In this document: one piece after another, positions 10,905-42,077 of the stretch
Position numbering within the stretch: position 1 is the first letter of the stretch
Layout: each line of letters starts with the position of its first letter
Source of the DNA: Acidimicrobiaceae bacterium
GTDB taxonomy: Bacteria; Actinomycetota; Acidimicrobiia; Acidimicrobiales; Bog-793
Assembly: GCA_027306925.1 (NCBI GenBank)
Contig: DAHUXW010000054.1
Span: 1 to 42,077, forward strand
Direction of reading: 5' to 3'
Length of the DNA stretch: 42,077 bases
Notes under the pieces: model-generated
The model's database searches: none
What the model was told of the DNA's origin: nothing
What the model saw: the letters and a program-made list of their open reading frames with translations, nothing else
Position numbers and translations under genes: made by a program

Positions 10905-11723
10905 TCATGCGTTGTAAGGCAACGCCGGCCCCGACGGGAGCACGGACATGAGACCGCCGTCGACCGAGAGCGTGGAGCCGGTGACGAACGAGGCGAGCGA
11001 CGACGCGAGGAACGCCACCGCATGCGCCACCTCCTCGGGCTGTCCCATCCGTCCGAGCGGGTGGCACGCGGCCATGCGCTCCAGCTGCTGAGCGGGCGAG
11101 CGCGCGACCTGCACCTCGCGCCGGACCATCGGGGTGTCGATGGTCCCCGGCATCACGGCGTTCGCGCGCACCCCGTAGGGCGCACCCTCGAGCGCGAGGG
11201 CGCGCATCAAGCCGAGGTCGCCCGCCTTCGAGGCAGAGTACGCGCAGGCGTCGGGGACCGTCGCGAGCGCATGGGGGGAGGACATCACCACCATCGAGCC
11301 TCGCCGCTGCTCGCACATGACCGCGAGCGCGGCTCGTCCGAGGAGGAAGATCCCGGTGAGGTTCACCGCGAGCACGCGCTCCCACTCCGCGAGCGAGGTG
11401 CTTCTCAAGTCCTTCATCCACTCGACCGCCGCGTTCAGGTGCACGACGTCGAGCCGGCCGTGCCGGCTCACGAGCGCGTCGACCATCGCGACGACGTCCG
11501 ATTCGACGGCGACGTCGCACTCCACGTGCTCCGCGCTCGCGCCCTCGTCGCGCAGCGCCGACGCGAGGGCCGCGGCGGAAGCTGCGTCGACGTCCGCGAT
11601 CACCACGGTCGCGCCCGCGCCGGCGAACAGTCGGCTCACCGCACCGCCGATTCCGGCCGCGCCGCCGCTCACGCACACGACCTGACCCTCGAACAGGGGC
11701 CGCCAGAAACCGTCCGGTGCCAT
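10905..11723 (-). CDS. Short-chain dehydrogenase/reductase (SDR)
   Basis: A 272-residue classical SDR. The nucleotide-binding motif is VSGGAAGIGGAVSRLF, the adenine-site acid is in IADVD, the NAA segment is LNAAVEW, the catalytic Ser is in VMSSPHA, Tyr-Lys is YSASKAGD, and SVDGGLMS closes the fold. It should oxidise or reduce a hydroxyl group with NAD(P). The start is ATG at 11723 with GGAGGGA about ten bases upstream; residues upstream in the same frame are Arg-rich noise. It lies 61 bases after the RidA stop and before the PLP enzyme, suggesting a shared pathway. Confidence 0.85.
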   Translation of the reverse strand: MAPDGFWRPLFEGQVVCVSGGAAGIGGAVSRLFAGAGATVVIADVDAASAAALASALRDEGASAEHVECDVAVESDVVAMVDALVSRHGRLDVVHLNAAVEWMKDLRSTSLAEWERVLAVNLTGIFLLGRAALAVMCEQRRGSMVVMSSPHALATVPDACAYSASKAGDLGLMRALALEGAPYGVRANAVMPGTIDTPMVRREVQVARSPAQQLERMAACHPLGRMGQPEEVAHAVAFLASSLASFVTGSTLSVDGGLMSVLPSGPALPYNA

Positions 11724-11784
11724 CACGCTCTCGTCCCTCCAGGGGGTCGCCGACCGCTCGTCCACGGCCCTTTCCGAACGGTCG

Positions 11785-12171
11785 TCAGCTCGCGTCGCAC
11801 ACGGCGAGGACCGTGACCTCGACCTTCGCTCCGGCACCGAGCGCCACGCCGACTGTCGTCCGCGTGGGGTACGGAAGCGCGAAAATCTCGGCGTAGCGCG
11901 CGTTCATCGCCGCGAAGTCCGCGAGGTCGGCGAGATAGACCTCGACTCGGACGACGTCGTCGAGCGTCGCACGCGACGCCGCGAGCGCGGCATCGACGTT
12001 CCGGAACGCCTGCACGAGCTGCTCGCCAACGTCGTCGGAGACGAGGCGACCGGTCTCGGGCACGGTGCCGATCTGCCCCGCCACCGACACGACCGATCCG
12101 ATCCGCACCGACTGCGAGTACGTCGCCGCGGGCGGCGGCGCGCCCGTCGTGCGTCCCTCGATCCTCGTCAT
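11785..12171 (-). CDS. ridA: RidA/YjgF-family enamine/imine deaminase
   Basis: A 128-residue RidA-family protein: TYSQSVRIGSVVSVAGQIG, LVQAFRNVDAALAASRATLDDVVRVEVYL and PYPTRTTVGVALGAGAKVEV follow the family order. The conserved Arg of the deaminase site may be the R in PTRTT, where the family usually has an Arg. RidA hydrolyses reactive 2-aminoacrylate-type enamines released by PLP dehydratases, which fits the PLP enzyme two genes downstream. The start is ATG at 12171 with a perfect AAGGAGG seven bases upstream. Confidence 0.85.
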   Translation of the reverse strand: MTRIEGRTTGAPPPAATYSQSVRIGSVVSVAGQIGTVPETGRLVSDDVGEQLVQAFRNVDAALAASRATLDDVVRVEVYLADLADFAAMNARYAEIFALPYPTRTTVGVALGAGAKVEVTVLAVCDAS

Positions 12172-12265
12172 GACGACCTCCTTCGTCTTCGACGCGCGCA
12201 CGCGCTCGACCCGCCTCCGACAAGTGCGCCGAGCGCGGTGCCGGCCCGACGCGTCCGGCGCCCCG

Positions 12266-12289
12266 GCGCATTGGCGCATTGGCGCATTG
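12266..12289. repeat. Three tandem copies of an 8-bp unit (GCGCATTG)
   Basis: Three exact GCGCATTG units sit directly after the aldo/keto reductase stop and before the RidA gene. Probably a slippage tract; no function is apparent. Confidence 0.85.
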
Positions 12290-12290
12290 G

Positions 12291-13346
12291 CTAGCGGTAG
12301 TTGCCGATCAGGCTCAGGTCGCCGGGACTGAGCCGGTCCGCGGCGCTGTCCGCCTGGTGCCAGTAGGGGTAGAGGAGCCGGGGCCTGCTCAGCTCGTCAA
12401 GGCGCGCACGCTCCTCGGCGGTGAGCTCCCACTCCGCAGCGCCGACATTGTCGGCGAGCTGGTCCTCAGTGCGAGCGCCGAAGATGACCGAGGTCACCGC
12501 TGGCTTGCCGAGGAGGTAGACGAGCGCGGCCTGGGCCGGCGAGCGACCGTGCGCCGTCGCCACCTCGACGAGCGCCTCGACGATGTCGTACATGCGCTCC
12601 TCGTCGTGGATCGGTGGCTCGCGCCACTCGTCGTAGCGCGTCTGGCGCGCCCCTTCCGGCGGGGTCGCGTTCCGACGGAACTTGCCCGAGAGCAGGCCGC
12701 CCGCGAGCGGGCTCCACACGAGGATGCCGAGCCCCTCGTCGATCGAAAGAGGGACGAGCTCGTACTCCACGTCCCGGTCGAGCAGCGAGTAGTACACCTG
12801 CTGGCTGACGTAGCGGACGAAGCCCCGGCGCTCGGAGACGCCGAGCGCCTTCATCACGTGCCAGGCGGAGTGGTTCGAGCAGCCGATGTAGCGGACCTTG
12901 CCCTGGTGGACGAGCGTGTCGAGCGTGTCGAGCGTCTCCTCCAACGGCGTGAGGCCGTCGCGCTGGTGCACCTGGTAGAGGTCGATGTACTCGGTGCCGA
13001 GGCGGCGCAGGCTCGCCTCGCACGCCTGGATCAGGTAGCGCCGCGAGAGCCCGGCATCGTTCGGCCCGTCGCCCATGGCGAAACGGGCCTTCGTCGCGAG
13101 GACGACGCGGTCCCGCCGGCCCCGGAGCACCTCGCCGACCATCTCCTCCGAGCGTCCGCCCGAGTAGATGTCCGCGGTGTCGATCAAGTTCACCCCGGCG
13201 TCGAGGGCCCGGTCGACGATGCGACGGGCCTCGGCGACATCGGTGTTGCCGACGACGGCGAAGTCGCCGCTCCCGCCGAAGGTCATGGTTCCGAGCGCGA
13301 GCGCCGAAACGCGAAGCCCGCTATCTCCCAGCTGACGGTATTCCAC
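12291..13346 (-). CDS. Aldo/keto reductase
   Basis: A 351-residue NAD(P)H-dependent TIM-barrel oxidoreductase. It has YRQLGDSGLRVSALALGTMTFG, the catalytic Asp/Tyr in LIDTADIYSGGRSEE, the Lys in VLATKARF, the His in YQVHQRDG, and YIGCSNHSAWH. It reduces aldehyde or keto groups, probably on a sugar. The frame allows ATG at 13361, but GTG at 13346 is preceded at eight bases by GGAGG and gives the usual family N-terminus, so I chose it. It follows the NagB-like gene by 176 bases in the same run. Confidence 0.85.
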   Translation of the reverse strand: MEYRQLGDSGLRVSALALGTMTFGGSGDFAVVGNTDVAEARRIVDRALDAGVNLIDTADIYSGGRSEEMVGEVLRGRRDRVVLATKARFAMGDGPNDAGLSRRYLIQACEASLRRLGTEYIDLYQVHQRDGLTPLEETLDTLDTLVHQGKVRYIGCSNHSAWHVMKALGVSERRGFVRYVSQQVYYSLLDRDVEYELVPLSIDEGLGILVWSPLAGGLLSGKFRRNATPPEGARQTRYDEWREPPIHDEERMYDIVEALVEVATAHGRSPAQAALVYLLGKPAVTSVIFGARTEDQLADNVGAAEWELTAEERARLDELSRPRLLYPYWHQADSAADRLSPGDLSLIGNYR

Positions 13347-32951: not shown

Positions 32952-33701
32952 ATGCACGCAACCACGAAGACCAGCGCATCCACAGCCGCGCGGCTCGGAG
33001 CCCGAGCGCTCGCCGCGGGAGCGCTCGTGGCCGGGACCGTCGCGCTTGGCGCGGGTGCCGCCGCAGCCGCGGGCTCCGGCTACGGACCGCCCGAGACCGG
33101 TCCGTCGAACGTGCCCGGCGGGTTCTCCAACGTCGTGACCGCGCGTACGGTCACGAGCACGGGAGGGTCGGTGTCCGCGCCGGTCCCGGGCGGAACGCTC
33201 GAGGTGTCGGTGCCTCCCGGCGACTTCACGACTCCAGTCGAAGTCGAGATCACCGCGCCCGACCTCGCGTCGATCGACCACTCGCTGCTCTCGCTCGGCC
33301 TCTCCGGGTACACGGCCATCGGCAGCACGGGCATCTCGCTGCTCACACCTGCGGGACACAAGCTCACCGGGCACTTCGCCCATCCGATCTCGGTGACCTT
33401 GACGGGGTCGGGACTCGGCCTTCGAGGCGAGCGGGTCGTCGAGCTGACGGGCCCGTCGAGCTTCGTGCCGCTCCCGAGCACGCTCGGCCACGGCACCATC
33501 ACGTTCTCGATCCTCTCCGACCCCGACGTCGTCGTACTGAGCTCGCTCACCGCGGGCGCCGTGTCGTCGGGCGCGACCGCGGTCCACACGGGCGAGCCGC
33601 TGCTCGGCGAGGGGGTCGTCGCGGGCGGGCTCGCCGTCGCGGGAGTCGCGCTCCTCGCCGTGGGGCTCCGCCGGCGCCGGCCGGCGAGACGGGTCGCCTG
33701 A
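32952..33701 (+). CDS. Secreted surface protein with non-canonical sortase-type C-terminal signal
   Basis: A 249-residue exported protein. The signal peptide (residues about 1-40: AARLGARALAAGALVAGTVA, cut near AAAAAG) leads to a beta-rich region: GGTLEVSVPPGDFTTPVEVE, then LTGHFAHPISVTLTGSGLG. The C-terminus has AVHTG at 210-214, then EPLLGEG, a hydrophobic helix (VVAGGLAVAGVALLAVGL) and RRRRPARR. This is the tripartite layout of sortase substrates with AVHTG in place of LPxTG. A sortase gene lies two genes downstream. The ATG has AGGAGG five bases upstream. It probably becomes linked to the cell wall or another protein; its own role is unknown. Confidence 0.75.
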   Translation: MHATTKTSASTAARLGARALAAGALVAGTVALGAGAAAAAGSGYGPPETGPSNVPGGFSNVVTARTVTSTGGSVSAPVPGGTLEVSVPPGDFTTPVEVEITAPDLASIDHSLLSLGLSGYTAIGSTGISLLTPAGHKLTGHFAHPISVTLTGSGLGLRGERVVELTGPSSFVPLPSTLGHGTITFSILSDPDVVVLSSLTAGAVSSGATAVHTGEPLLGEGVVAGGLAVAGVALLAVGLRRRRPARRVA

Positions 33702-33836
33702 TCAGGGCAAGCGGCGCGCGGGACGCTCCCGCGGCCAACCTTGCCACCCGGATCGACGCGCCGATCGTGCCGGCTGCGCCGAGAGCGGTCGTCGCCGCGG
33801 CGAGCCGGTCCACCGCCGCGAGGAGGCCCTGCACTG

Positions 33837-35954
33837 ATGGCACTCGATCTCGAGCCCCGACCCGCGACCGCGGACCCTGGCGCGGCCGAGGCGCCACGCG
33901 GCCCGTCGGCCGCTGCCTGGCCACTCGCGACGGGAGAGCAGGCGCACCGGGCCGTGGCGCTGCTCGCGTCGCTCGGCCTGTTCGGCGTCGCGTTCGCGAC
34001 GTGGTCGACCATCATCTCCGTCCCGGCGACGGGGATCGCGTCGCTGCTCGGGTTCGCGGGCGCGCTCGCGCTCGTCGTCGCGTCGCTGACCGTGCGACCG
34101 GAGCGGCTCGTATGGGTCGATCGTGCGCTGCTCGTGCTCGCGCTCGTGCTCCTCGCGGCCTGGGCGGCCTCGAACCTCTACTCGCAGCCGGGCTACGGAA
34201 CGGACGAGGCCGCGTTCGAGCAGTACGCCGCCCAACTCCTCCTGCACGGCCACGACCCCTACGGCGCGAACCTCGCCCCCGCTCTCTCGCTGTACCGGGT
34301 GCCGATCCAGTACGCGACGTACCTGCTCGACGGGGGCGCCGTGCACACGCTCGGCTACCCGGCGCTGCCCGTGCTTCTCGTCGCCGCGTTCATCCCGCTG
34401 ACCCACGGCGTGCAGTCCGTGATCGCGGCCGACGTCGTCGCGCTCGCGGCGACGGTCGTCGCGATGTACGCGCTCCTGCCGCGACCGTGGCGCTCGCTCG
34501 CCGTGCTCGTTCCGATCGGTCTCCCGATCCTGTTCGGCTACGCGGTCGCGGGTGTGAACACGATCGTCGTCGGCGCGCTGCTCGTCGTCGTCGCGCACCG
34601 CTGGTCGGGCGTCGGCGCGGGTGGACGGCTGTCACGAGGAGACGTCGCGCGAAGCGTCTTCCTCGGGCTCGCGATCTCGACCCAGCAGCTCGCCTGGCTC
34701 GTCGCGCCGTTCGTCGTCATCGGCATCTACCTGGTCCGCCGCACAGAGCTCGGGCCGAGGGGAGCCGCACGCGTCTGCGTGCGGTACGCGGGCGGTGCGC
34801 TCGCGACCTTCGCCGTGGTGAACGCGCCGTTCGCCGTGCTCGGGCCCCGCGCCTGGCTCTCCGGGGTGCTCGGGCCGATCACCCAACACGCGATCCCCTA
34901 CGGGCAGGGCCTCGTCGACCTGAGCCTCTTCTTCCATATAGGCGGCGGCGACCTCGCCGCCTACAGCGCGGCCGGGCTGCTCGCGTACCTCGGAGCGCTC
35001 GTCCTGTTCGCCATGTGCTTCTCCCGGCTCGGGCGAGGGGCGTTCGTCATCCCGACGATCGCGCTCTTCTTCACGACGCGCTCGCTGGCCGAGTACTTCA
35101 TGACCCTCGTCGCGGCCGTCACGGTGAGCCTCGTCACGACCGATCGCGACGACTTCACCGCCGCGTCGCGACCAGATACGTCCCGTCGACTGCGGGCGGG
35201 CGGGCGCAAGCTCGTCGGCGCGCTCGCGATCGCGCCGTCGCTCGGGGCGCTCGGCATCGCCCTCGCGACGCGCGCGCCGCTCGCGATAACGATCGTCGGC
35301 GTGCAGACGAACGGCCAGCTCCAGTCGGTCTGGCAAGTCGTCGCACGCGTGACCAACCACAGCACCCGCGAGCTCGCACCCGAGTTCGCGACGGACTTCA
35401 CGGGCCAGGCGACGACCTTCTACCACCGGCTGTCGGGCCCGCGGCTCCTCGGACCCGGGAGATCTGCCCGCTACGTCCTCGACGCCATCAACCACGGGTC
35501 GATGCCCGGCGTCACCACACCCTTCCTCCTGCAGGCCGTGACCGCGACGCCCGCGACGATCTCGTCGAGCTCGCTCTTCGTCCCCCAGCCCTACACGGCC
35601 GAGATGCAGCCGGGCTACGTCGACGGCGTGCGCCCCTCCGGCACCGCCGTGACCTTTCGCGTGCAGCTCCGCTCGACCTACGGCGGCCTCGTCCACGAGC
35701 GCGGCGTGAAGATCGCCCTCGGCCAGGTCATCTACGGCCAGAGCGCGCTCATCCCCGCGGAGGCGAGCGTGAACGGAGCCGCGCAGGGCGAGACCCCCGT
35801 GTACGGCTCGACGAACGGCGCGGGCGTCGCGACCTTCCACGTGCGCGACTCCTCACCCCAGGGCCAGCCGATCTACTTCCAGTCCTGGATCGACGCCGCT
35901 TCGGGGTACCCGTTCGGCTACTCCTCGATCGTCTCGGTGCTCTGGCAGCGATGA
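33837..35954 (+). CDS. Polytopic membrane protein, GT-C (DUF2029-like) glycosyltransferase, with extracytoplasmic tail
   Basis: About 705 residues. The first 500 hold around ten membrane segments. The first outer loop has YGTDEAAFEQYAAQLLLHGHDPYG, the acidic-plus-GHDPY layout of polyprenol-phosphate-sugar-dependent GT-C enzymes of DUF2029/GT87 type. After the last segment a roughly 200-residue beta-rich tail follows (LQSVWQVVARVTNHSTREL, VTFRVQLRSTYGGLVHERG), probably outside the cell. The ATG at 33837 has GAGGAGG about eleven bases upstream. It is followed with a four-base overlap by the sortase gene, so it may glycosylate the sortase substrate or a wall polymer; this is inference. Confidence 0.75.
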   Translation: MALDLEPRPATADPGAAEAPRGPSAAAWPLATGEQAHRAVALLASLGLFGVAFATWSTIISVPATGIASLLGFAGALALVVASLTVRPERLVWVDRALLVLALVLLAAWAASNLYSQPGYGTDEAAFEQYAAQLLLHGHDPYGANLAPALSLYRVPIQYATYLLDGGAVHTLGYPALPVLLVAAFIPLTHGVQSVIAADVVALAATVVAMYALLPRPWRSLAVLVPIGLPILFGYAVAGVNTIVVGALLVVVAHRWSGVGAGGRLSRGDVARSVFLGLAISTQQLAWLVAPFVVIGIYLVRRTELGPRGAARVCVRYAGGALATFAVVNAPFAVLGPRAWLSGVLGPITQHAIPYGQGLVDLSLFFHIGGGDLAAYSAAGLLAYLGALVLFAMCFSRLGRGAFVIPTIALFFTTRSLAEYFMTLVAAVTVSLVTTDRDDFTAASRPDTSRRLRAGGRKLVGALAIAPSLGALGIALATRAPLAITIVGVQTNGQLQSVWQVVARVTNHSTRELAPEFATDFTGQATTFYHRLSGPRLLGPGRSARYVLDAINHGSMPGVTTPFLLQAVTATPATISSSSLFVPQPYTAEMQPGYVDGVRPSGTAVTFRVQLRSTYGGLVHERGVKIALGQVIYGQSALIPAEASVNGAAQGETPVYGSTNGAGVATFHVRDSSPQGQPIYFQSWIDAASGYPFGYSSIVSVLWQR

Positions 35955-37051
35955 TGGGCGGTCGCCACAGCGCTCCCGCGCGCCGCTGGTGGGTCGCCGG
36001 CCTCGGCGCCGCGCTCGTCGTCGCCGGTGGTGCGCTCGCGTACCGGGTCGAGGAGTTCCTGCACCACTCGAGCTCGTCCGCACGTGCGCTCGTGCGCGAC
36101 TTCGAGGCGAGCCAGCCCACGACGCTAGCTGCAGGCACCGGCACGGGGGGCGTGTCGCCCGCGGCGGCGTCGTGCACGAGCACCGCTCCGGGCGGTGCGC
36201 GAATGCTCCTCGAGATCCCGGCGCTGCACGAGATCGCTCCCGTGCTCGAGGGGACGTCCGATGCCACGCTCGGCGTGGGCGTCGGCCACCTCGCCAGCTC
36301 GCCCTGGCCTGCTGCGGGCGGCAACACGGTGCTGGACGCCCACGACGTGACGTTCTTCCGCTCGATCGACGCGCTCCGCCGGGGAGACCAAGTCCTGCTC
36401 GTCGGGACGTGCACCACCTGGCGCTACGAGGTCTCGGGCTCCACGGTGCTCGAGCAGGGCCGGCCGGTGGCGGCCGCCACCGGCCCGCACCTGGTCCTCG
36501 TGACGTGCTGGCCGACCGACGCCCTCTTCTACACGACGAAGCGGTTCGTCGTGGTCGCGCGCCTCGCGACCGTCGCGCCGACGCGCGCGGTGCTCCCGGC
36601 GGCGCGACGCCTTCCGGACGTCACCGCAGCGCTCGCACCCGCGCTCGCCGCGCTCCACCTCGACGCGAGCACCGCGGGAGTCCCGCTCGGCACGCTCTCG
36701 CTCGACGGCCGCTTCGATGCGTCGTGGCTCACGTCCTCGCGCCCCCTCCAAGCGTCCGACGCGGCGACGCGCCTGCTCGAGGCCGCGGTCGTCGCGGCGC
36801 GTGGCCGCGAGCCCGGTCCTTGGCGCGTCATGGCGCCCGGCGTGCCGTTCTCCGCCGTCGAGCCGCTCGCAGGGCCGCTCATCTGGCTCGCTCCCGTGCA
36901 CGTGGCGATCTTCGGGCGCGGGGTGCAGGTAACCCGTGCGTCGCTCGGCGCGACCGTCGAGATCCGGGGATCCCCACGCGACCTCGCCGTCACTACCGCA
37001 GTCCGGCGAGGAGTGATGGTCATCACGAGGTTCGAGCTCCTGGCGCCGTGA
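35951..37051 (+). CDS. Sortase-family transpeptidase with long C-terminal extension
   Basis: A 366-residue protein anchored by one N-terminal helix (VAGLGAALVVAGGALAY). The sortase core has all catalytic residues: His131 in VLDAHDVTFFRSI, Cys186 in LVLVTCWPTDALF, and Arg198 in TTKRFVVVA. GDQVLLVGTCTTWRYEVSGS matches the strand before the catalytic Cys. About 160 residues follow the core (ending VMVITRFELLAP), longer than in typical sortases. They have no recognised fold. The ATGATG start overlaps the GT-C stop. It probably joins the AVHTG-bearing protein at 32952 to a wall or glycan acceptor. Confidence 0.8.
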   Translation: MMGGRHSAPARRWWVAGLGAALVVAGGALAYRVEEFLHHSSSSARALVRDFEASQPTTLAAGTGTGGVSPAAASCTSTAPGGARMLLEIPALHEIAPVLEGTSDATLGVGVGHLASSPWPAAGGNTVLDAHDVTFFRSIDALRRGDQVLLVGTCTTWRYEVSGSTVLEQGRPVAAATGPHLVLVTCWPTDALFYTTKRFVVVARLATVAPTRAVLPAARRLPDVTAALAPALAALHLDASTAGVPLGTLSLDGRFDASWLTSSRPLQASDAATRLLEAAVVAARGREPGPWRVMAPGVPFSAVEPLAGPLIWLAPVHVAIFGRGVQVTRASLGATVEIRGSPRDLAVTTAVRRGVMVITRFELLAP

Positions 37052-37802
37052 CCGGGGCTCGCTCGCGCAGCCAGCTGCGGAGGCGCGACGGGCGACCCGA
37101 CGGGACGGTCTCCGCGGCCCGCAGTGGCTCGGCGCCCGTGAGACGCGACGCGAAGGCTCGCGGGCGACCGGTCGAGGCTCTCGTCGATCGGGCGCGGGAG
37201 CTGTCACCGGTCGACCGGCGCGGCCACGGCATCGGCATCGAACGGGTGGGCAACGGGAAGCCCTGGCCGTCGTCGCACGCGAGCGGAGCGAGCTCGGCGT
37301 GCGGGTGGTGCGTCGCTACTCCCTCGCCCACGACCGACAAGCCGAGGGCGTGTGACATGGCCGTCGCTGCGGCGACGACCTCCCGGTCACGCGCGCTGCG
37401 CCCGATGTGCTCGACGAAGCTCCGGCCGATCTTGCGCACGTCCACACGGAGATGTCGGAGGTGGACCAGCGTCGAGCACCCGGTCCCGAGGTCGTCGAGC
37501 GCGAGGCGCACGCCGAGCGTCGACAAGCGCGAGAGAACCTCCTCGACCTCACCGACCTCACCGACCTCGCCGATGAGCGCCGTCTCGGTCATCTCGAGGC
37601 AGAGCCGCTCGGGGGGGATCCCGTGGCGCGACACGGCCGCCGCGACCCGGTCGACGAGCCCGGGGTCGACGAGCCCGGGGTCGACGAGCCCGCGCCCGGA
37701 GACGTCGACGGACACCGTGACGTCACCGGGCCGGTGACCCCGCGATCGCCAGTCCGCGAGCTGGCGACACGCCTCGTCGAGCGTGAACAGCGGCTGGTGC
37801 AC
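37023..37802 (-). pseudogene. Degenerate EAL-domain (cyclic-di-GMP phosphodiesterase) relic
   Basis: The minus frame shows the C-terminal half of an EAL domain: LDEACRQLADWR, RLCLEMTETALIGEV, LALDDLGTGCSTLVHLRHL, VDVRKIGRSFVEHI. The N-terminal strand ALFLVHQPLFT is fused directly to LDEACRQ, so about 60 residues including the EAL motif itself are deleted. KIDxSFV reads KIGRSFV and the late ExVE motif reads GEGVAT. Near 37240 the frame slips: the proper ending PFDADAVAAPVDR with a stop at 37204 is in another frame. There is no start with a ribosome site. Short in-frame expansions (GLVDP and GEV repeats) add to the picture. It is not an active phosphodiesterase. Confidence 0.75.
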
Positions 37803-37984: not shown

Positions 37985-39325
37985 TCACCACTGCGGCCAC
38001 GACGCGGGCATCGTGCCGGCCGTGCCGCCCTGCACGATGCCGCCCGGCGCTCCGAGCGAGGTGAGCATCTGGGAGTAGTTGATGCCGAACGCGGTCGTGT
38101 TCCACCCCGCGAACTGCCCGTACGCTGCGGCCATGGTCTCGCCGTCGCCGGCGGCCGCCCACCCGGTCTCGATCCCGTCCGGGCCCGCGTAGAGCTGGCC
38201 GATGACCGTCGAGGCCGAGACGGACTGGCCGACCTGCACGGTCGGCGTGATGTCCTCCGCCGCGTACATGACGAGTCCCGCCGCGGGGCCGTCGGTGAGC
38301 CGGTAGGCGATGAACGTCCCGCCCGGCCACCCGCCGTTGTAGGTGCTGAGCACGACCCCGTCGCCGACCGCGTAGATCGGGCCGACGCCCGAGTAGTCGA
38401 CGCCCATGTCGATCCGCTCCGCGGACAGGCCCGAGATCGCCCGGAGCGGGTCCGCGTACGACCCGGGCGTCGCGGCGCTCGGCACGGGCGCGACCGGGGG
38501 CGTCACGGCCGCGTGCTGGGTCGCCTGCTGCGCGGCACGTGCGAGCGCGGCCTCCGCGGCCGCCTCGTTTGCCCGGGCGCGCTTCGCGTTCGCCGAGGCG
38601 ACGAGCGCGAGCAGGCTCTTGTTCGCGTGGCGCAGCAGCGCCTGGTCCGTCGCGGTCGCCGACTCGGCCGCCGCGCGGGCTGAGCTCAGCGTGCGCAGCG
38701 TCGCCGCCGTCCGGGAGCGCAGCGAGGCGAGCGTCGCCTCGGCGACGGTCGTGCGGTGCTGGGCGTCCTTCAGACCCGTCGCGGCGCTCGTGAGGCTCCC
38801 GCTGACGATCCCGAGGTAGACCTCGCGCGACGGAAGGGTCGTCGCGTTCGCGCCGCTCGTGAACGACGCCGTGTCCGCGGACGCGGCGCTCACGTACGCG
38901 TCGACCGCGAGGGAGCGCATGCGGACGCGGGCCCGGGACTGGGCGCGCACGTCGGACGCGAGCTGCGTGCGACCGGCACGGAGCTGGGAGTCGATCTGCG
39001 CCATGAGCGCGGCGGCCTGGTCGTATCGGACGACGAGGGACTGCGTGCGCAGGCCTTCCGCGACGATCTGCTGGGCGAGGCGGTGGGTCGCGGCCCGCGC
39101 CGAGCCGATCGTCGGGCCGTGGGTCGTCGCAGCGGCCGTGCTCAGCGGGACGGCCGCGGCGGCCCCGGCGCCTGCGACGAGCAGCGCGAGGATCCGGGTG
39201 ACACGGCGCGGCGCGAGCGGCCGGTCCCCGCGACGTCCGAGGCCCCCTGCGCAGGAGAAGCGCGCGCCCGATCGGCCGGGCCGGCGACGCCCGGACACGC
39301 CGGGACCCGCGGTCGCACGTCGCAC
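37985..39325 (-). CDS. Secreted coiled-coil protein with zinc-less LytM/M23-like domain
   Basis: About 446 residues. A signal peptide (RILALLVAGAGAAAAVPL) is followed by a long Ala-rich helical region (residues about 70-290: VVRYDQAAALMAQIDSQLR, ARAAAESATATDQALLRHAN) and a C-terminal M23-like beta domain: ERIDMGVDYSGVGPIYAVGD, GGWPGGTFIAYRL, VQVGQSVSASTVIGQLY, IETGWAA. The first zinc His is replaced (IDMGVD) and the HxH motif is absent, so it cannot be a normal zinc peptidase. Non-catalytic LytM proteins elsewhere activate amidases. GTG at 39325 was chosen because a good leaderless promoter ends there. It is convergent with nothing essential and lies beside the SipW module. Confidence 0.75.
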   Translation of the reverse strand: MRRATAGPGVSGRRRPGRSGARFSCAGGLGRRGDRPLAPRRVTRILALLVAGAGAAAAVPLSTAAATTHGPTIGSARAATHRLAQQIVAEGLRTQSLVVRYDQAAALMAQIDSQLRAGRTQLASDVRAQSRARVRMRSLAVDAYVSAASADTASFTSGANATTLPSREVYLGIVSGSLTSAATGLKDAQHRTTVAEATLASLRSRTAATLRTLSSARAAAESATATDQALLRHANKSLLALVASANAKRARANEAAAEAALARAAQQATQHAAVTPPVAPVPSAATPGSYADPLRAISGLSAERIDMGVDYSGVGPIYAVGDGVVLSTYNGGWPGGTFIAYRLTDGPAAGLVMYAAEDITPTVQVGQSVSASTVIGQLYAGPDGIETGWAAAGDGETMAAAYGQFAGWNTTAFGINYSQMLTSLGAPGGIVQGGTAGTMPASWPQW

Positions 39326-39904: not shown

Positions 39905-40600
39905 GTGGCCATTTCGGTTCAGGGTGCGCCCGGCGACACCCGATCGCTGAGACTCCATTCGCCGCATCGAAGGCGGCCGACGCGCCGGGTCCTCGGAGCG
40001 GTCACAACCGTCCTTGCCGGGCTCGTCGCGCTCCTTCTCGTCGCGTCCGTCGCGCTCGCGGTCCTCGTGCGACACGGCCCGAGCGGCGATCTCGTCGCGT
40101 TCGGGCATCCGGTCTTCTCCGTGGCGAGCGGGTCGATGACCCCGACGTTCGACACGGGCGACCTGATCGTCGACCGTGCGCTGACGACCAGCGAGGCGGC
40201 GTCGTTGCACGTGGGCGAGATCATCACGTTCCGCGCCGTTTCCCCGGCGACCGGCAACATCCCGCTCACGGTCACGCACCGCATCTACGCGGTCCGGCGG
40301 GCGCTATCGCCGCTCGGCGTCCCGGTCGTCTCGTACACGACGAAGGGCGACGCCAACAACGCGCCGGACCAGTGGACGATCCACCCGAACGACGTTCTCG
40401 GCCAGTACGAGTCCCGCATCTCCGCCGGCGGCTACGTCATGGCGGCGCTTCACCGCCCGCTCACGTTCGTCCTCCTCATCATGGCCCCGGTCGTCTACCT
40501 CGCCTTCTCCTGGACGCGCCGTCGGTGGATCGCGATCGGAGCCGCGGAGGCGGACGCAGGTTCGCCCCGTGAGCTCGAGCAGCCCGCCGACGACGAGTAG
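39905..40600 (+). CDS. SipW-type signal peptidase I (ER-type Ser/His)
   Basis: A 231-residue membrane peptidase. One N-terminal membrane segment (VLAGLVALLLVASVALAVLV) precedes the catalytic Ser77 in SVASGSMTPTF. The second catalytic residue is His125 in LTVTHRIYAV, as in archaeal/ER and SipW-type peptidases, not the Lys of LepB. SYTTKGDANNAPDQW is the box-E-like GDxN segment. A second membrane helix lies near the C-terminus (FVLLIMAPVVYLAF). The frame is open 28 codons upstream, but GTG at 39905 has GGAGGG nine bases before it. It should cut the signal peptide of the TasA-like protein encoded 151 bases downstream. Confidence 0.85.
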   Translation: MAISVQGAPGDTRSLRLHSPHRRRPTRRVLGAVTTVLAGLVALLLVASVALAVLVRHGPSGDLVAFGHPVFSVASGSMTPTFDTGDLIVDRALTTSEAASLHVGEIITFRAVSPATGNIPLTVTHRIYAVRRALSPLGVPVVSYTTKGDANNAPDQWTIHPNDVLGQYESRISAGGYVMAALHRPLTFVLLIMAPVVYLAFSWTRRRWIAIGAAEADAGSPRELEQPADDE

Positions 40601-40711
40601 CGCCGGCGCGCCGCACGCACGCACGGGTTGACCGGCACGACTGCGCAGTCAGGGAGCGACGAGCCCCCAGGGAGGTACGCCATCGAACGAGCGACGCCAT
40701 CCACGCAGAAG

Positions 40712-40730
40712 CGACCGGCTACGCCGGTCG
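40712..40730 (+). promoter_or_regulatory. 8-bp hairpin in the leader of the TasA-like gene
   Basis: CGACCGGC and GCCGGTCG flank a three-base loop 20 bases before the ATG at 40752 and just ahead of the AAAGG ribosome site. It could influence translation or message stability; it is too weak to call a terminator. Confidence 0.45.
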
Positions 40731-40751
40731 AACACGAACCGAAAGGCTGAC

Positions 40752-41969
40752 ATGTCCACATTGAGACGGAAGCGGTCCGTCCTCGCACTGAGCAGCTTGG
40801 GGACGGTCGCAGCCGTTGCCGCCCTCGTGACCGGTGCGACGACGGCGCTGTTCTCCAGCACGGCGAACTCGTCGGGCTCCACGTTTGCGACGGGAAACGT
40901 CGTGCTCACCGGTGCGAGCACCGACGGCACGAGCTACCCGGCCGGCAGCCAGGGCTCGTCCACATGCTCGTTCACCGCTGAACCCGGCGGCACTCCCGGG
41001 CAGATCACGATCAACGGCGCACCGAGGAACATCGGTGTTCCGTTCGTATGTGACTACAACCTGTCCTACACGGGGAGCATGCAGGCGTTCATCCTCTTGA
41101 ACGTGAGCACGACGTCGACGGCCGGGCCGGCGACGACACCTTCGAGCAGCCAGACGCAGTATGGCGGCGAGGCGCTCATCGACGGCACGTCGAGCGGCCT
41201 GAACGTCGGCGTCTACTACCAGCCCGTCCCGGCGACGACCCCGTCGGACATCCAGACGTTGACGATCGGCAACCTCGACCTCGGGTCGTCGGGCACCACG
41301 CCGGCGGCGTGCACCCCGCAGGACAGCAGTGGCACGGTGACTCCGGCGGGGTTCTGCGCGAGCACCTTCAGCACGGCAGACGGCCAGCTCGTCGCCGCGA
41401 CGGGTCAGGGCGGCCAGGGCGGGAACAAGGTCGGTCCCGGCTGGAAGGGCACGATCCAGGTCGAGGGCTACCTGCCCGCGACCGCCGGCAACGAGTACGA
41501 GGGCGGCACCGCGCAGGTGACTGTGACCGCGTCGGCGATCCAGTCGGACAACAACACCTGGAACGGCGGCTACCCGTGGTCGAGCGCGTTCGGGCCCATC
41601 GCCCAGGGCGTCCACGTGACCTCCGAGCAGACCGGATCCGGGACCGGGACCGCCACGATCACCTACGACGAGCCCGTGTCGTTCACGCCGACCTACGTCA
41701 CGCACCCGGCGCTGAACTTCGGCGTGCAGGACGTCACCCAGGTCGACTCCGCCCACAACCGTCCGGACACCTGTACCGTCCCGGACAACAGCGTGAGCGT
41801 GAACGGCGACCAGCTGACGTTCAGCTTCACGTGCTCGACACCGTCGAGGAGCGGCGACTTGTTCGACGTCTTCTACACCCAGAACGGCGGCGACTACGTG
41901 ATGTCGACGGGCACCCCGTCGCAGTACGCGCAGTACCCGCAGGCCTTCTGGAACCAGTCGGCCTCGTAG
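40752..41969 (+). CDS. TasA/CalY-like secreted protein with SipW-type signal
   Basis: A 405-residue exported protein. The N-terminus RRKRSVLALSSLGTVAAVAA, LVTGATTALFSSTANSSGST, FATGNVVL matches the SipW-dependent signature (signal, then A.FS...N.F.TG). The mature part is Thr/Ser/Gly rich and beta-type, with several Cys (TCSFTAEP, FVCDYNL, AACTPQDS, FTCSTPS) that may pair as disulfides. In Bacillus such proteins form biofilm matrix fibres. It is much longer than TasA, with an extra C-terminal part of about 150 residues (VTSEQTGSGTGTATITYDEP). The ATG has AAAGG six bases upstream. The adjacent SipW-like peptidase is its probable processing enzyme. Confidence 0.8.
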   Translation: MSTLRRKRSVLALSSLGTVAAVAALVTGATTALFSSTANSSGSTFATGNVVLTGASTDGTSYPAGSQGSSTCSFTAEPGGTPGQITINGAPRNIGVPFVCDYNLSYTGSMQAFILLNVSTTSTAGPATTPSSSQTQYGGEALIDGTSSGLNVGVYYQPVPATTPSDIQTLTIGNLDLGSSGTTPAACTPQDSSGTVTPAGFCASTFSTADGQLVAATGQGGQGGNKVGPGWKGTIQVEGYLPATAGNEYEGGTAQVTVTASAIQSDNNTWNGGYPWSSAFGPIAQGVHVTSEQTGSGTGTATITYDEPVSFTPTYVTHPALNFGVQDVTQVDSAHNRPDTCTVPDNSVSVNGDQLTFSFTCSTPSRSGDLFDVFYTQNGGDYVMSTGTPSQYAQYPQAFWNQSAS

Positions 41970-42018
41970 CGCCCGAGCCCGACGGAGCCGTTGCCGGCGC
42001 GCAACGGTTGGCCGGGTG

Positions 42019-42060
42019 GGCGCCGGAGCCGGTGGGCACTTGCCCACCGGCTCCGGCGCC
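42019..42060 (+). terminator. Perfect 19-bp hairpin after the TasA-like gene
   Basis: A 19-base stem (42019-42037 with 42042-42060) encloses the four-base loop ACTT, about 50 bases after the stop. It is extremely GC rich and has no U tract within the window, in line with actinobacterial terminators. The window ends 17 bases later. Confidence 0.8.
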
Positions 42061-42077
42061 GAGCGCTCGGACCGGAC

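Follow-up and report, generated by a model that had tools for sequence, protein, structure and literature searches.

A three-gene locus resembling SipW-TasA secretion and fibre cassettes in an Acidimicrobiales draft genome

Introduction

TasA-type fibres have so far been worked out in Bacillus, and related filaments are known from archaea. TasA fibres assemble as each subunit's N-terminal strand fills out the sandwich of the following one (PMC9674648), and TapA presents its N-terminus to start TasA polymerisation (PMC10151520). Bacillus cereus, with sipW-tasA, capP and calY, uses CapP as a chaperone-like partner; CapP is reported to be absent from B. subtilis and its gene to be transcribed independently (PMC13082335). 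Aromatic residues at P2′ are reported to hinder LepB, and TasA, which carries Phe there, to be cut by SipW (PMC10269814). Archaeal bundling pili (AbpX) are also described as a TasA-like system (PMC9674648). TasA homologues beyond Bacillus are already known, and the SipW-type signal is already covered by NCBIfam TIGR04088; the locus described here varies a known theme. Among the matches listed for SipW and TasA in the literature, titles and the openings of abstracts hold no description of such a cassette in actinobacteria.

The locus lies at the end of a 42,077-nt stretch of DNA (the window). The draft genome, from an uncultured actinobacterium, comprises 2.87 Mb in 170 contigs, of which the window is contig C8. 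The last plus-strand genes of the window are sipW (39905-40600) and a tasA-like gene (40752-41969), with a gap of 151 nt between them. A hairpin follows, and then a third gene encoding a secreted FN3-like protein; all three genes are co-directional. The reading that we favour, with reasonable though limited confidence, is that they make up a cassette of the SipW-TasA type for secretion and fibre formation. What the sequences show of it is the gene order, the processing signal and the kinship. The initial annotation of this DNA had placed a Ser/His signal peptidase gene before a protein with a SipW-type signature, and this arrangement is borne out, both genes scoring above the cut-offs of the respective profiles, TIGR02228 and TIGR04088.

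Like tapA-sipW-tasA of B. subtilis, the locus pairs a dedicated signal peptidase of the ER type with a secreted protein that depends on SipW and adds one accessory secreted protein; its order, however, is sipW, tasA-like, FN3-like. On B. subtilis TasA, the family profile aligns with the last strand and with the region of the N-terminal strand, whereas the window protein itself has about 373 mature residues against 234 in TasA chain 8aur, six Cys and a C-terminal extension, and its direct similarity to TasA is undetectable. B. cereus also combines SipW, a TasA homologue and an accessory protein, but its capP forms an independent transcript (PMC13082335), while the third gene of the present locus is FN3-like and follows co-directionally after the hairpin. 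AbpX differs in being archaeal, and the matches of an order-wide TasA-like profile (A2, below) to it, at E 0.034 and 0.06, are not significant. Actinobacterial loci L111-L123, several of them titled Acidimicrobiales or its families and L123 titled Streptosporangiaceae, share with the window the SipW gene directly upstream, Cys72 and Cys100, the Phe position at P2′, the last strand motif and a downstream third gene. Their TasA-like proteins are 221-235 residues long (L115 being partial), in contrast to 405 in the window, and end in a short tail with two Cys and no extension.

The signal peptidase and its predicted substrate

The peptidase gene (39905-40600, plus strand) has a GTG start with GGAGG upstream and encodes a 231-residue SipW-type (ER-type, Ser/His) signal peptidase I. 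It scores 76.6 bits against TIGR02228 (cut-off 51.85) and 70.6 bits against the Bacillus SipW equivalog NF046067, below the cut-off of 190. Read by eye, the His of an xHR motif is present in all 31 SipW-type domains aligned, the window peptidase included, and the Ser of an SM motif in all, again with the window's, but L079, which ends before that site. The source genome encodes two SipW-type and two LepB-type signal peptidases.

The downstream gene (40752-41969, plus strand), identified as an ORF, by TIGR04088 and by a profile of 12 relatives, encodes a secreted TasA-like protein of 405 residues and six Cys, in agreement with the roughly 405 residues and several Cys originally reported. A predicted SipW-type signal peptide (residues 1-32, 40752-40847), delimited by conservation and by where the family profile aligns at the start of 8aur, is followed by a putative donor-strand segment (residues 33-52, 40848-40907), whose position comes from the same profile alignment, starting at residue 1 of 8aur, and whose role is assigned by analogy with TasA fibres (PMC9674648). 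The TasA/camelysin-like core (residues 53-268, 40908-41555) was delimited from alignments A1, A2 and A4 and has insertions that hold Cys187 and Cys202.

The TIGR04088 match covers residues 17-50 at 20.5 bits, 1.5 bits over the cut-off of 19. The alignment of the A2 profile begins at residue 1 of 8aur and pairs the invariant Phe of the family with the second residue of that chain, also Phe; on this basis cleavage is predicted after Ala32 (P1), with Phe34 at P2′. Both residues are kept in 31 of 31 A2 rows, a count that is biased because most of these rows were gathered by the SipW-type signal itself. The 14 rows of A4 were gathered by motifs in other parts of the protein; 11 of them keep Ala32 and 13 keep Phe34. 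A search for SipW-TasA pairs in related genomes, the check proposed with the initial annotation, showed the TasA-like gene to be immediately preceded by SipW in 13 of 14 related loci from named genomes; the 14th, L124, retains only a 129-residue frame, and the search gave no SipW there. Together with the A4 counts, this pairing upholds the SipW-type processing put forward in the initial annotation, which we regard as well supported by sequence comparison. An ordinary secreted protein processed by LepB, with a signal peptidase adjacent by chance, would suit a genome that holds two LepB-type enzymes and a signal that is a short motif barely above its cut-off. This explanation is nevertheless extremely improbable, given the retention of SipW in the related loci, the Phe34 of A4 and the aversion of LepB to an aromatic P2′ (PMC10269814).

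The hairpin and the third gene

Between the tasA-like gene and the third gene lies a perfect 20-bp hairpin (42019-42060, arms 42019-42038 and 42041-42060). Folding of positions 41970-42077 gives a z of -6.7, and none of 200 shuffles was as stable. A canonical intrinsic terminator was considered and rejected, there being no T-run after the hairpin. A dispersed repeat was likewise rejected: apart from the overlapping end of contig C3, the genome has no second full copy, and one further site has two mismatches to one arm. Rfam gave no matches in the window.

The window ends in an exact overlap of 141 nt (41937-42077) with C3:21067-21207 (minus strand). The full 141-nt stretch occurs only in C8 and C3, and the rest of the genome matches nothing beyond the hairpin arms. 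Some assemblers work with k = 141, a setting that would account for an overlap of this size. The end of C8 overlaps C3, where a third co-directional gene follows, so the cluster runs on past the hairpin. The hairpin of the initial annotation thus stands, with 20 rather than 19 bp, and its closing role does not; the third gene was out of view there, since the window stops at the contig end.

The third gene (C3:19902-21029, minus strand; 42115-43242 if the numbering of the window is continued) is placed by the C8-C3 overlap and begins 145 nt past the tasA-like stop; the gene after it is convergent. Its product, P0002, is a secreted, FN3-like, Pro-rich protein of 375 residues, with an FN3-like stretch that scores 16.2 bits against Pfam fn3, below the cut-off of 25, and a proline-rich tail. 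A profile built from the third proteins of 10 relatives places an FN3-like secreted protein in 12 of 14 loci and finds two loci outside its building set, L113 (1.5e-26) and L124 (1.9e-45). L114 ends 20 nt past the TasA-like frame, and in L123 a second TasA-like gene comes first and then an FN3 protein (28.8 bits). P0002 itself matches the profile weakly, at E 0.0027 and in its FN3-like part, and a TasA-like ORF of L100 outscores it (1.5e-6, at the N-terminus); its kinship to the third proteins of the relatives therefore rests equally on position and on sequence. As a phmmer query P0002 found none of the relatives' third genes. A short FN3-like protein also follows SipW in the more distant order loci L064, L067, L076, L080, L081, L088 and L094.

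In two alignments read by eye, the likely P2′ position of the relatives' third proteins holds Phe or Trp in 10 of 10 and 6 of 7 sequences; P0002 has Ser, with no aromatic residue, at its likely P2′. When the donor-strand profile of the TasA-like proteins was compared with 23 third proteins, two matched at E < 1 with the signal included and none with the strand alone, so that a TapA-style donor strand in the third protein is an unproven idea.

Kinship of the core with TasA and camelysin

Comparison through its relatives identifies the window protein as a divergent member of the TasA/camelysin family. The mature core matches the profile of 12 relatives at E 6.4e-9 (32.5 bits); this profile was built from mature parts only, leaving out the window protein and L115, whose frame is broken. 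The best of 1000 shuffles (996 scored) reached 7.1 bits on it and the best of 766 background ORFs 4.4 bits. Most of the score comes from 36 residues, 234-269, which hold the last strand (domain E 9.7e-6), and residues 64-178 contribute little (domain E 0.2). In the broad sense of the camelysin/TasA superfamily, that is, homology of the mature domain to camelysin-like proteins, the window protein is a member. It counts as a divergent one because, set against this match, a profile of 28 more distant TasA-like proteins did not pick it out (E 1.9, rank 4 of 770) and, in a PDB search with the A4 profile, TasA ranks below antibody chains, at E 0.45-0.49.

A2 comprises 31 TasA-like proteins from across the order, two of them encoded by the source genome, namely the window protein and a second one. 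Of the 12 PDB sequences listed for its profile, the two highest-ranking are B. subtilis TasA (E 2.5e-13 and 2e-12), with both the region of the N-terminal strand and the last strand matched. PF12389 (camelysin/TasA) is matched at E ≤ 0.1 by 29 of 31 A2 members (best 5.3e-17) and by 12 of 14 A4 members (best 3.6e-8), the window protein being among neither set; 11 of the A4 members match TIGR04088, and four match the TasA equivalog NF046066 (best E 0.0014).

Queried alone, the window protein matched no Pfam family, PF12389 included, gave no match to NF046066 at E ≤ 0.1, and found no solved TasA structure with phmmer. As sole query it also found no relative among genome contigs, viral contigs or plasmids, and alignment A1 found none among viral contigs. 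Against 98 genomes of relatives it had one match besides itself (G041, E 5.6e-4, 39% over residues 5-85), rejected as a 587-residue ORF that does not read as TasA-like. The full-length AlphaFold model is weak (mean pLDDT 51, pTM 0.45). With this model, Foldseek places the TasA fibre 8aur at rank 7 (E 6.6e-3, TMt 0.31), and VIA on residues 42-268 returns generic beta-sandwiches (Z ≤ 8.3), viral capsids included, with TasA absent from the 50 rows listed; these VIA rows were given no weight. A single-sequence fold was discarded at pLDDT 32. Of the SipW-TasA-like pair first proposed, then, the processing holds well and the TasA kinship holds through relatives, not directly.

The C-terminal extension

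Beyond the core lies an extension of about 137 residues (269-405, 41556-41966), predicted to be beta-rich, with Cys341 and Cys361 and no clear homologue. It corresponds to the extra C-terminal region already pointed out for this protein and is absent from all 12 A4 relatives whose frame can be followed to its end. In the 13th, L115, the TasA-like frame (L115:5992-6648) is interrupted at about 6453 with the match continuing to 6648, as in a pseudogene or after a sequencing error. The extension gave no Pfam match over the cut-off. Alone against 397 genomes it retrieved, besides itself, six weak matches (E 0.001-0.009), among which that of L105 was dismissed, since it reads by eye like a flagellar rod protein. 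VIA with the weak model, residues 287-387, has 6c29 as its best row (Z 7.2). Oversize alone is not unique to the window protein, as G313 carries a TasA-like ORF of 360 residues.

These features bear on the principal alternative, in which the protein is a secreted surface member of the camelysin superfamily, processed by SipW, that stays monomeric and serves as an adhesin or binding protein whose active part is the C-terminal domain. The oversized extension, absent from relatives, the core insertions and the undetectable direct similarity to TasA would all suit such a protein. We judge it unlikely, if worth keeping in mind, because the family profile matches the N-terminal segment as well as the last strand of TasA, that segment joins subunits in TasA fibres (PMC9674648), and both the SipW pairing and the third gene are retained.

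Distribution among related genomes

Matches to TIGR04088 occur in 36 of 397 sampled genomes of the order, the window's included; the kinship of sampled genomes follows GTDB. Forty regions of the order were compared, 39 of which cover all 40 non-self TIGR04088 matches, plus one more; L099 was kept among them though it is probably a false match, with the motif in a transporter-like ORF. The SipW profile found SipW in 29 of the 40, on the same strand in all 29, at a distance from the motif of less than 1 kb in 20 regions and of 1.2-3.2 kb in nine. Several of the 11 regions without SipW are short contigs. Across the phylum, 19 of 396 genomes, again counting the window's, have a match to the A4 profile at E ≤ 1e-5, and many of these matches are partial.

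In a tree of 41 SipW domains, from which L079 (truncated) and L111 and L114 (duplicates of L072 and L065) were left out, the window SipW is sister to that of L123 (support 100/97) and falls, with moderate support (80/82), in one group with the 13 SipWs that accompany the same TasA-like subfamily. SipW and the TasA-like gene thus appear to have moved as a pair. In L123, a MAG titled Streptosporangiaceae, two tandem TasA-like genes (L123:5905-7316) lie between SipW and the FN3 protein.

A whole-genome search with A2 found only two TasA-like genes in the source genome, both contained in that alignment. The second belongs to another pair, on G000:C148, where a SipW-type peptidase (L059:10950-11471, minus strand; TIGR02228 72.4 bits) lies beside a 254-residue TasA-like protein (11551-12315, minus strand).

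A proposed route to a surface fibre

In the fibre cassette that we favour, Sec would export the TasA-like precursor, and SipW rather than LepB would cleave it after Ala32, as sequence conservation and gene pairing suggest. By analogy with TasA, the freed N-terminal strand would fill out the beta-sandwich of the subunit that follows, and a donor-strand fibre would grow on the cell surface or close to it. The role in an envelope fibre or matrix envisaged in the initial annotation is thus plausible on the Bacillus model, and fibre formation by this cassette is what we infer from that model. The C-terminal extension would probably hang off the core of the fibre and serve to decorate it or as a binding module. 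For the third protein, a part as accessory, initiator or anchor comparable to that of TapA or CapP in Bacillus is probable, and this is the weakest step of the proposal. The intergenic hairpin may lower expression of the third gene or separate it from that of the major subunit.

A wider proposal would see here a recurrent actinobacterial three-gene fibre system of SipW, TasA-like subunit and FN3 accessory, found in Acidimicrobiales and beyond, in which the FN3 protein replaces TapA or CapP as initiator or anchor and the window subunit carries a new C-terminal display domain. We put this forward tentatively, as a possibility that falls short of an even chance. A compact unit resembling the biofilm-fibre genes of Bacillus points to a little-studied surface-fibre route in such actinobacteria. 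If conserved, the sipW/tasA-like/FN3 unit in Acidimicrobiales would carry donor-strand assembly to an actinobacterial order known here mostly from draft genomes, and the FN3 protein would be a third kind of accessory besides TapA and CapP. The gene set is short and testable, and it offers a natural setting in which to ask if fibre subunits tolerate a large C-terminal domain.

Neighbouring genes

Upstream of the cassette, three plus-strand genes in a row (32952-37051) encode a secreted 249-residue protein with a C-terminal TG/hydrophobic/Arg tail, a 705-residue membrane-like protein and a sortase (PF04203, 70.3 bits), and possibly form a sortase module. Membership of the TasA-like protein in a sortase-based surface module with these genes was weighed as a further alternative. 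The sortase-domain gene (35951-37051) and that of the secreted protein (32952-33701), whose hydrophobic-plus-Arg tail would fit a sortase substrate, lie about 3-7 kb upstream; two minus-strand genes stand in between, however, and both the TasA-like protein and P0002 end, by eye, without a sorting signal, which makes this alternative improbable. Of the two intervening genes, one encodes an EAL-domain protein (37023-37802, minus strand; PF00563, 119.7 bits), and its 3′ end overlaps the 3′ end of the sortase gene by 29 nt. The other (37985-39298, minus strand) is divergent from sipW and has a weak M23 peptidase match of 18.2 bits, below the cut-off of 28.7. Further surface proteins are encoded on C3 (L058:33-4048), one of 697 residues with matches to the cell-wall-binding CWB2 family (62.9 bits) and one of 576 residues with five He_PIG Ig matches.
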